Source of the DNA: Asaia bogorensis
Lineage (GTDB): Bacteria > Pseudomonadota > Alphaproteobacteria > Acetobacterales > Acetobacteraceae
Length of the DNA: 64,000 bases
Direction of reading: 5' to 3'
NCBI GenBank assembly: GCA_945868845.1
Contig: CAMBMS010000008.1
Location: forward strand, 1 to 64,000
The notes under the pieces were generated by a model. The model worked only from the letters and a program-made list of their open reading frames with translations. It was not told the DNA's origin and ran no database searches. Numbering within the stretch: position 1 is the stretch's first letter; each line of letters opens with the position of its first letter. Shown one piece after another: positions 4,457 to 48,104 of the stretch. Made by a program: the position numbers and the translations under genes.

Positions 4457-5431
4457 ATGCAGATGAGCAAACGTGGATTGCCATTTCTTGCCGCGGCGGT
4501 CGCCGCCATCTTGGCTCTGCCAGGCGTGCCGGCGAAGGCGCAGAACTTCCCCACCAAGCCTGTGACTCTGGTGGTGCCCTGGCCCGCCGGCGGTGCGACG
4601 GACCGGCATCTGCGCGTGCTCGCCGATATCGCCAGCAAGCATCTGGGCCAGCCGATCGTTGTCGATAACAAGCCTGGTGCGTCCGGTACGCTGGGCCCGG
4701 CCACCGTCGCCACCGCCAAGCCGGATGGCTACACAATTGTTCAGTTGCCGATCACGGTGTTCCGACTGCCCTACATGCAGAAGGTTTCCTTCGATCCAAA
4801 GAAAGATTTTAGCTTCATCGTCAATCTGACGGGCTACACCTTTGGCACGGCGGTGATGGCCACGTCGCCGTGGAATACGTGGAAGGAATTCCTTGCCTAC
4901 GCCAAGGAAAATCCTGGCAAGATCCGCTATGGCTCGCCCGGCGCCGGCACCACCCTGCACATCACCATGGAACAGATCGCCAAGCAGATGGGCATCCAAT
5001 GGACGCAGGTGCCCTTCCGGGGCGAGGCGGAGGCGACCGCCGCGTTGCTCGGCGATCATGTGGAGGCAGTGGCGCTGGGCGCCGGCCTCGGCCCGCTGGT
5101 GGATGCCGGCAAGGTGCGCATGCTGGTGGTGTGGACGGAAACCCGCTCGCCGCGCTTCCCCGATTCACCGACCTTGGTGGAAGAAGGCCATAAGCTCGTC
5201 TCCGCCTCGCCCTATGGCCTCGCTGGGCCGAGAGGCATGGACCCGAAGGTGGTGAAGATCCTGCATGACGCGTTCCAAAAATCACTTGGCGACCCGGCCC
5301 ATACGAAGACGCTAAACGATCTGTCGCAGCAGATGATGTACCGCAATAGCGCCGACTACTCGAGATTCGCCATGGAGCTGATCGAGGAACAGCAGAAAAT
5401 CATCAAAGACCTCGGCCTCGGCCAGAAATAA
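4457..5431 (+). CDS. tctC: Bug-family tricarboxylate-binding receptor TctC (tandem paralogue)
   Basis: A 324-residue Bug-family receptor that closely resembles the gene just upstream; both share QNFPTKPVTLVVPWPAGG, the YMQK segment and LGLGQK at the C-terminus, so this is a tandem duplication. The start at 4457 (MQMSKRG) places a normal signal peptide at the N-terminus, cleaved near AKA-Q. The frame stays open to 4400, but those residues precede the signal peptide and do not look exported. It lies 65 bases after copy one, probably in the same transcript. Two receptors may widen substrate range for one TctAB permease. Confidence 0.92.
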   Translation: MQMSKRGLPFLAAAVAAILALPGVPAKAQNFPTKPVTLVVPWPAGGATDRHLRVLADIASKHLGQPIVVDNKPGASGTLGPATVATAKPDGYTIVQLPITVFRLPYMQKVSFDPKKDFSFIVNLTGYTFGTAVMATSPWNTWKEFLAYAKENPGKIRYGSPGAGTTLHITMEQIAKQMGIQWTQVPFRGEAEATAALLGDHVEAVALGAGLGPLVDAGKVRMLVVWTETRSPRFPDSPTLVEEGHKLVSASPYGLAGPRGMDPKVVKILHDAFQKSLGDPAHTKTLNDLSQQMMYRNSADYSRFAMELIEEQQKIIKDLGLGQK

Positions 5432-29567: not shown

Positions 29568-30103
29568 CCTACATCTTCCTACTAGTCTGCCTGGTGATGA
29601 CCGCGATCGCCATCGTTCGCACGCGCAATCTGTTCGCGGCGGTCGCGCTGGGCGGCATTTACAGCTTCTGCATGGCGCTCTCGCTGCTGGTGCTGGACGC
29701 GGTCGATGTCTCGATGACCGAGGCATCCGTCGGCGCCGGCATCTCCACCGTGCTGTTGCTGGGCGCGCTGCACCTGACCGGGATCGAGGAAGCCCCGGCC
29801 CAACGCCCGGCCCTGGTGCCGATGCTGGTGTCCATCGTCACCGGGGTGGTGCTGCTGTATGGCGCTTGGGGCCTGCCGCCCTTCGGCGATCCGGCGGGCG
29901 TGATTCACCACCACGTGGCGCCGCGCTACCTGAACCAGGTGGTTGCGGAAACCGGCGTGCCGAACGCAGTCACGGCGGTGCTCGCCAGCTACCGCGGCTA
30001 TGACACGCTGGGGGAGACCACTGTGATCTTCACCGCCGGGATCGGCGTCCTGCTGCTGCTGAAAGGCCGGCGTCGCAAGCAGCCCGGGGACCGACCGTCA
30101 TGA
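29555..30103 (+). CDS. MbhD/MbhE-like (MnhA C-terminal-like) antiporter subunit
   Basis: About 180 residues with an MbhD (DUF4040) part (AIAIVRTRNLFAAVALGGIY and VSMTEASVGAGISTVLLLGA) and an MbhE-like end (SYRGYDTLGETTVIFTAGIG). In Bacillus-type Mrp systems these domains form the C-terminus of MrpA. Family N-termini would begin about IETLTYIFLLVCLVMTA; here that codon is ATC (29555), and no ATG, GTG or TTG precedes GTG 29594 / ATG 29597, which would cut into the first helix. The true start is therefore unclear: ATC, CTG 29564, GTG 29594 or fusion to mnhG. Confidence 0.85.
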   Translation: METLTYIFLLVCLVMTAIAIVRTRNLFAAVALGGIYSFCMALSLLVLDAVDVSMTEASVGAGISTVLLLGALHLTGIEEAPAQRPALVPMLVSIVTGVVLLYGAWGLPPFGDPAGVIHHHVAPRYLNQVVAETGVPNAVTAVLASYRGYDTLGETTVIFTAGIGVLLLLKGRRRKQPGDRPS

Positions 30104-46432: not shown

Positions 46433-46831
46433 ATGTAAGGCGAGGACGCGATCCACGAATTGCTGCCGGAATATTGTTATTGGCTGGACAATAACCGCTT
46501 CGATGACATGGCGGTCTAGTTAACCGAGGACGGCACCTGGGCCACCGCGTTCGGCACCGGCAGCACACGGGCCAGCGTCGTCGGGCAGCTCCGAAAAACG
46601 CCGCCAAGGGCGGCGGAGCGCCGCCGCGCCGCATCAATCATACCACCAATATCGTCATTCGCCTGTCTGGCGACACCGCGTAGGTGACGTCGAACTCGAC
46701 GGTGGTGGAAAACTCCCCGAACAATATCCGTCCCAGTTAGGGCGGCTACACGGACGATCCGGCAAAATAAACGGCCCTGGATGTTTAAATATCGTAAGAT
46801 AGACCGTGACCTCGCCCCCGGGTTGTTCTGA
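46433..46831 (+). pseudogene. Broken SnoaL-like/NTF2-fold gene
   Basis: From 46433 the frame reads AIHELLPEYCYWLDNNRFDD and MAV-stop (TAG 46516-46518), then LTEDGTWATAFGTGSTRASV and VGQLRK, then after a shift RRINHTTNIVIRLSGDTA-stop, then VENSPNNIRPS-stop-GGYTDD, and ends WMFKYRKIDRDLAPGLF with the stop at 46829-46831. This is the pattern of a SnoaL-like polyketide-cyclase/ring-hydroxylating small-subunit fold. At least four in-frame stops and one or more frameshifts make it non-functional. The second codon at 46436 is itself TAA. Confidence 0.8.
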
Positions 46832-46834
46832 CCC

Positions 46835-47941
46835 TCAGGCTAGCACCGCTTCCGTCTTCCGCTTGATCAGCTCGAAGTCGATATCCGCGCCGAGCCCCGG
46901 TCCTGTCGGTGCTGACAGCATACCGTCGGCGTCGATTTCCAACTCCGTTGCTATGCCGTATTTATGCGCGCCATCTGGCAGCAGCACCTCGAACCACGTT
47001 GTATTCGGGATCGACAGCGCCAGATGCAGGTTAGCGAGGTTGTTCAGAGAATTGCCAGAATGGTGGATTTCATAGTTCATACGAAACGCCTCCGCGAGGT
47101 GCGCGGTCTTTAGCATCGTCGTTAGCCCACCCTTATTGGGAATATCGCCGCGTAGGTAATCCGTGGCCTGCTGTGTCAGCCAGATCGGGTAAGTGTCCAA
47201 TCCACCGGCAGGATATTCCGTAGCCATGATCGGAATATTTAATTTTTGCCGCAGTTTTACATAGGACAGAATATCTTCATCGGCCAACGGGTCTTCATAC
47301 CAGAGATACCCCATCTCCTGGATTGCCAGCCCGACACGCAACGCGGCGGGGTAGTCATAGCTCCAGGTAGAATCTAGCATCACGTTGTAATCATCGCCAA
47401 CGCCGCGCCGTACCGCCTCGCAGACTTTGATATCGGTGGCGGGATCAGTGGGCGGATGAATCTTGTACGCCTTCCAGCCCGATTGCTTAAGGCGTTGCGC
47501 TTGATCTACATAGGCCCCTGCGTCGGGAAGAAGCTGCGAGGACGCGTACGCACCAATGGAAGTCCGCGTCGTCCCCATCAGCGCATGTACCGGCAGCCCG
47601 GCGATTTTTCCGGCGAGATCCCATAACGCTACATCCGCCGCGCCAATGCAGCGATAGGAGACGGACCGGGATAATTTCAGCATCCGCGCGTGAAGTCGCT
47701 CGCGTTCCAGCGGGTTGGCGCCCATCAGTAGCGGCTTGATCCAGCGGATCAGTTGTGGCCCATCCATGGACGCTGGATTGGACGCGGAGCCAAGAAACGC
47801 ATGGCCCTCCTGACCGTCATCCGTCCTGATCCGCAACAGGCCGAGGTTGGAATTCTGCTGCGTGAAAGAACCGGCGTGGTAGCGCGTAGCGGGGATATTA
47901 TCCCAGGTGAAGATGGTGAGGGAGATGTGGTCGATTTTTAT
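46835..47941 (-). CDS. Mandelate racemase/muconate-lactonizing family protein, start codon altered
   Basis: An enolase-superfamily enzyme abstracting an alpha proton from a carboxylate. Metal-site and catalytic regions are present: WKAYKIHPPTD, VMLDSTWSYDYP, LWYEDPLADED, IMATEYPAGG and YEIHHSGNSLNNLANL. Family homology begins at KIDHISLTIFTWDNIPATRY, upstream of the first TTG (47836), where the start position reads ATA (47941-47939), nine bases after GAGGGG and two codons after a TGA. Either ATG mutated to ATA or a rare start is used; starting at TTG 47836 would remove 35 residues of the capping domain. It ends 3 bases from the SnoaL remnant. Confidence 0.8.
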   Translation of the reverse strand: MKIDHISLTIFTWDNIPATRYHAGSFTQQNSNLGLLRIRTDDGQEGHAFLGSASNPASMDGPQLIRWIKPLLMGANPLERERLHARMLKLSRSVSYRCIGAADVALWDLAGKIAGLPVHALMGTTRTSIGAYASSQLLPDAGAYVDQAQRLKQSGWKAYKIHPPTDPATDIKVCEAVRRGVGDDYNVMLDSTWSYDYPAALRVGLAIQEMGYLWYEDPLADEDILSYVKLRQKLNIPIMATEYPAGGLDTYPIWLTQQATDYLRGDIPNKGGLTTMLKTAHLAEAFRMNYEIHHSGNSLNNLANLHLALSIPNTTWFEVLLPDGAHKYGIATELEIDADGMLSAPTGPGLGADIDFELIKRKTEAVLA

Positions 47942-48104
47942 GGCTCAAATCCCCTCACGCCTATGGCTTCCTGGAACTGGCTACCCGGCTCCCAGAGTAG
48001 TTTGCGGTGCTTTTCTAAAGGAACTTACGCTGGATGCAAGTTGGCATGGCAGATGTCAGCGGATCGTCGTTGCACCCATCCTACCCCCAGCGTAGATTGC
48101 CCAA

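Follow-up and report, generated by a model that had tools for sequence, protein, structure and literature searches.

The infC gene of E. coli, which encodes IF3, begins with AUU and is subject to autocontrol by IF3. The accessible part of a study on S. aureus (PMC13009471) mentions this autocontrol and describes AUA starts in that species for infC, ccpN and, in the 8325 lineage, citZ; in reporters the AUA starts of ccpN and citZ reached about 10% of AUG, and that of ccpN up to 30% in rich medium. Switches of start codons have been reconstructed in 36 genome triplets with 61,358 ancestral AUG starts, for which the accessible part of the source gives 363 AUG-to-GUG and 113 AUG-to-UUG switches, together with two AUG-to-CUG and one AUG-to-AUU (PMC5622118). 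Because that part lists none to AUA, natural switches from AUG to AUA in a gene whose body is intact would be uncommon, and annotation is likely to be biased against AUA starts in such counts. No paper was found that combines three of the topics start codon loss, pseudogenes, bacterial genomes and ATA start codons.

The window analysed here is a stretch of 64,000 nucleotides from Asaia bogorensis (contig CAMBMS010000008.1), in which an earlier note had described an intact gene of the enolase superfamily with ATA in place of its start codon, a GAGGGG motif at the proper distance and a TGA two codons earlier. All of these are borne out on the minus strand, which reads GTGAGGGG ATT TGA GCC ATA AAA ATC GAC CAC around the start (Table 1), and the frame is open and complete as described, with no stop between the ATA and the terminal TGA. 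The earliest in-frame ATG, GTG or TTG is the TTG at 47836 (codon 36), so gene finders limited to these three codons would begin the gene there or call it broken. A start further 5' in the same frame is ruled out by the TGA two codons before the ATA. A codon-usage scan of 464 kb for coding signal ahead of the first standard start kept 230 genes; such a scan would miss the ATA gene, which scores 0.116 against a threshold of 0.12 per codon. The window also holds a weak and short coding-like signal on the plus strand (29594-30100), with ATC and CTG codons in it, that precedes the first standard start codon of an ORF.

Table 1. Positions in the window of the enolase-superfamily gene, its start region and the adjoining pseudogene
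Feature	Position	Strand	Remarks
Enolase-superfamily (MR/MLE) gene	46835..47941	-	368 codons counted from ATA; stop TGA at 46837-46835
Start-position codon ATA	47939..47941	-	ATG in 81 distinct orthologues
In-frame stop TGA	47945..47947	-	Two codons 5' of ATA
Shine-Dalgarno-like GAGGGG	47951..47956	-	Spacer to ATA of 9 nt
Internal in-frame TTG	47834..47836	-	Codon 36; what a gene finder would fall back on
Predicted mRNA hairpin	47915..47960	-	GUGAGGG (SD) paired with CCCUCAC (codons 7-9), AUA in loop
SnoaL-like pseudogene	46433..46770	+	Several stops, frame change; convergent, adjoins 3' end of enolase-superfamily gene

The membership in the enolase superfamily proposed in the note holds, since both Pfam domains lie above their cut-offs: MR_MLE_C with 4.5e-49 (167.5 bits, cut-off 29.4) and MR_MLE_N with 4.1e-10 (40.3 bits, cut-off 22). 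None of the NCBIfam equivalog cut-offs, which belong to named dehydratases and cycloisomerases, was reached; the best was TalGalacDh with 118 bits against 500. The protein matches the PDB chains 1rvk, 4hcd and 4mmw at E values of about 5e-50 over aligned residues 31-360, and in the sequence alignment its candidate D/E/E and K-x-H stretches line up with those of 1rvk. These stretches are candidates for the metal ligands and the acid/base residues at the ends of the barrel strands. The three matches are MR/MLE enzymes (isomerase/lactonizing enzyme) and share the superfamily with the window protein, but are only distant homologues of it. No close second copy of the gene was identified in the genome, the next best match having 31% identity.

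Of 299 genomes of the family searched for homologues, 220 had a match at E 0.001, and the full-length orthologues among these reach 87% identity. A scan of the genome collection provided 68 loci and a further 29 were fetched from family genomes, so that the start was read at 97 loci. The codon homologous to the ATA is ATG in 67 of the 68 and in all 29; as 15 of the fetched loci have coding sequences identical to ones among the 68, these amount to 81 distinct orthologues with ATG at the ATA position, which answers the comparison that the note had called for. The one exception, L101, has 54% identity, is matched from residue 3 on and carries CAG at the aligned codon with an in-frame ATG upstream; it is a divergent homologue that simply has a different N-terminus. 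The TTG at codon 36 was considered as a start and rejected, for orthologues starting there, the finding that the note had named as speaking against an ATA reading, were seen at none of the 97 loci. The change from ATG to ATA is, by this comparison, private to the window genome among the genomes read.

The rest of the gene was compared in an alignment of the window sequence with 65 of the 68 loci, leaving out L101 for its different N-terminus and L108 and L109 for their shortened frames. Sixty-four columns are invariant in the 65 other sequences, and the window sequence differs at a single one, the start. Against the 26 nearest orthologues there are 178 invariant columns and it differs at two, the start and V6I. 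When these 26 were treated alike as a control, L059 departed at two invariant columns, L065 at one and the other 24 at none; the one departure of the window sequence is notable for the column in which it falls, not for number. With the start codon left out, pairwise dN/dS comes to 0.055-0.073 for the six nearest relatives and to 0.055-0.158 for all 26, compared with a median of 0.096 (range 0.038-0.173) in 69 pairs of the others with dN of 0.06-0.12. The dS to the nearest relatives is 1.6-2.1 and near saturation, and dN/dS therefore cannot date the ATG-to-ATA change. A bound was computed from the 177 other invariant codons, at which one private change is found in 400 nonsynonymous sites; by this bound the gene can have gone without selection for no longer than about 0.012 neutral substitutions per site (95%). 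If the gene is dead, its loss would be younger than that figure. Past the start, no stops, frameshifts or relaxed constraint were found in the gene, with which a very recent null is compatible. By these comparisons the gene is in use still, or was so until recently, and the ATG-to-ATA change is either recent or carried by a gene still under selection. Both alternatives of the note, a fresh start-loss mutation and a real ATA start, come through the orthologue and constraint comparisons.

A second ATA at a start position is found in the infC gene of the same genome (L130, around C4:151661-152158), which reads AGGAG TGACCC ATA GCC CGC and places the ATA behind a good SD. The start-position codon of infC was read in the best-scoring 30 of 59 matches in the family (L151-L180) and 30 of 56 in the class (L187-L216). 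Among 31 family loci including that of the window genome, 25 have ATA, 4 have CTG and 2 have ATC. Among the 25 readable class loci, ATA stands in 20 and ATC in the other 5; a further 5 fetched class loci were unread by the pattern and left uncounted. The near-cognate codon is preceded by a purine-rich SD in the family loci, the recount having required one, and one of these loci with ATA (L167) carries an additional ATG immediately behind the SD, two codons before the ATA. ATA, ATC and CTG have no amino acid in common and are all near-cognate start codons; in 464 kb sampled from the genome, ATA makes up only 5.9% of isoleucine codons. A start of infC at codon 6 (TTG in the window genome) lacks a preceding SD, and relatives do not conserve a start codon at that position. 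A near-cognate IF3 start thus appears, by sequence conservation at the codons read, to be general in the class and AUA initiation to be in regular use in the clade, where it is presumably kept low by IF3 under autocontrol as in E. coli infC. No description of a near-cognate infC start in Acetobacteraceae or alphaproteobacteria was found in openly accessible literature. Relatives of the enolase-superfamily gene do not retain a near-cognate start, having ATG in all 81 distinct orthologues, whereas those of infC do.

The reading that we prefer, and to which we give an even chance, is that the ATG of an accessory gene, itself intact, has recently become ATA, a change that is seen only in this genome and would act as a leaky down-mutation. 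A single recent change would have turned the conserved ATG start into ATA in a gene that is otherwise intact, and the retained SD would still place the ribosome at the ATA. The fMet-tRNA would pair with AUA through a third-position mismatch, which IF3 discriminates against, and translation would be strongly lowered, most likely without being abolished. Since infC starts with a near-cognate codon, ATA or another, by the sequences of this genome and of the class, the ATA need not mean an absolute loss and the leaky reading is more than a guess. We infer that AUA would initiate at the enolase-superfamily gene, and at the lowered strength given above, and that the change is young and not a product of selection.

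The strength of initiation was considered from the SD and the folding of the start region. The SD duplex energy of -8.7 kcal/mol (an estimate with an assumed anti-SD) is close to the -8.8 of infC and within the -10.7 to -5.8 of the 26 close orthologues, and the ATA gene would accordingly have no stronger, compensating SD in comparison with its relatives. The start region is predicted to fold at -17.4 kcal/mol, more tightly than in 25 of the 26 close orthologues (range -22.3 to -5.0). Three overlapping stretches of it gave folding z-scores of -1.84, -2.40 and -2.65, the last for the hairpin in Table 1, which 3 of 200 shuffles equalled. The hairpin may be due to chance, as conservation of the protein already accounts for that of its coding arm. 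The SD score and the hairpin both predict low expression, and with an SD no stronger than that of relatives and a tighter fold the output could therefore be negligible.

The strongest competing explanation, which we consider rather unlikely, is a plain start-loss null as the first step to a pseudogene, in which an accessory gene is no longer needed and makes no useful protein. It would fit the private change, the predicted pairing of the SD within the hairpin, the decay of the adjacent SnoaL-like gene and the absence of the gene from the one other genome of the genus examined. The enolase-superfamily gene is a lone gene, divergent from dusB, and at its 3' end the SnoaL-like gene has decayed already. 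The first piece of that pseudogene matches SnoaL_4 in Pfam above the cut-off (1.8e-6) and the second below it (0.068); SnoaL-like matches occur in 11 of 120 family genomes, that of the window included, and homologues that lack stops in the matched part occur elsewhere. A weak DNA match to the pseudogene stretch was also noted in L082 (E 0.001, 67 bases). The enolase orthologue is missing in the one other genome of the genus examined (G077, an assembly 85% complete), where the best match has 28% identity. This genome has the same order of SLT, dapA, smpB, molybdopterin oxidoreductase, GPx, spacer, dusB, ntrB and ntrC, and its spacer before dusB (L123 3914-5231) contains neither the enolase-superfamily gene nor the SnoaL piece. 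The spacer does contain an ORF (4555-4899), presumably a transposase remnant, and similarity between the two genomes picks up again about 42 bases before dusB. The spacer before dusB is, as far as this pair of sequences goes, a variable interval, and the accessory status that the preferred reading gives to the enolase-superfamily gene fits because the interval differs in the other genome and a pseudogene adjoins. In genomes with the nearest orthologues, the identity of the enolase-superfamily protein is higher than that of DusB (enolase vs dusB: G266, 87 vs 71; G113, 86 vs 72; G089, 86 vs 78; G119, 85 vs 75; G055, 84 vs 78; G078, 79 vs 73; G014, 76 vs 74), which suggests a possible horizontal transfer, though the rates of the two proteins may differ. 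No conserved operon partner was found at the 68 loci, the widest shared neighbour family occurring in 16; it resembles a TctC/Bug-type binding protein. Remnants of the neighbours of the orthologues were not detected at E 1e-4 in the spacers flanking the window gene, and the matches listed in that search are shadow frames overlapping the enolase-superfamily gene itself. Against a plain null stand the gene body without signs of decay, the retained SD and the apparent use of AUA as a start codon in the class.

It is improbable that the true codon is ATG and that the ATA stems from an error in sequencing or in the consensus, or from a variant that is minor in the culture. The sequence does come from a single draft assembly of 49 contigs and the ATA abuts a run of five A, but the error would have to be a substitution in an otherwise clean frame, and for the assembly a completeness of 100% and a contamination of 0.6% are given. 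Least of all do we expect a maintained, adaptive ATA start, by which selection would hold the weak codon for low, IF3-tied expression as for infC: the fully constrained gene body, the ATA of the same genome's infC, the predicted hairpin with AUA in its loop and the regulated AUA starts of S. aureus (PMC13009471, accessible part) would agree with it, but none of the 81 orthologues shares the ATA, the SD is not strengthened as are the extended SDs that this source gives for S. aureus sites, and the hairpin, with its conserved coding arm, may be chance. It is likewise a long shot that a metabolic gene has come under an IF3-sensitive AUA start mode apparently kept for infC in the class, with the modelled hairpin as part of the control; if so, expression of the gene would follow the state of the initiation machinery.

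Under the preferred reading of a recent, leaky start change, the enolase-superfamily gene adds to a known phenomenon, because AUA starts of single genes are known from infC, ccpN and citZ of S. aureus. Together with the near-cognate infC start found across the class, it allows a direct test of how leaky AUA initiation is in bacteria other than E. coli and S. aureus. The AUA of S. aureus infC (PMC13009471) resembles that of the window gene in lying behind an SD, as does the infC of the window genome itself, but the near-cognate codon is class-conserved in infC and private in the enolase-superfamily gene. The ccpN gene is likewise a single gene with an AUA start; it is conserved among staphylococci and has an extended SD (PMC13009471), neither of which applies to the window gene. 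The likeness to citZ of the NCTC 8325 lineage is that of a metabolic gene with an AUA start within one lineage of a species; citZ is still expressed, as ribosome profiling and reporters have shown, and shares its AUA among a lineage of strains (PMC13009471), whereas the ATA of the window gene is seen in the sequence of one genome.
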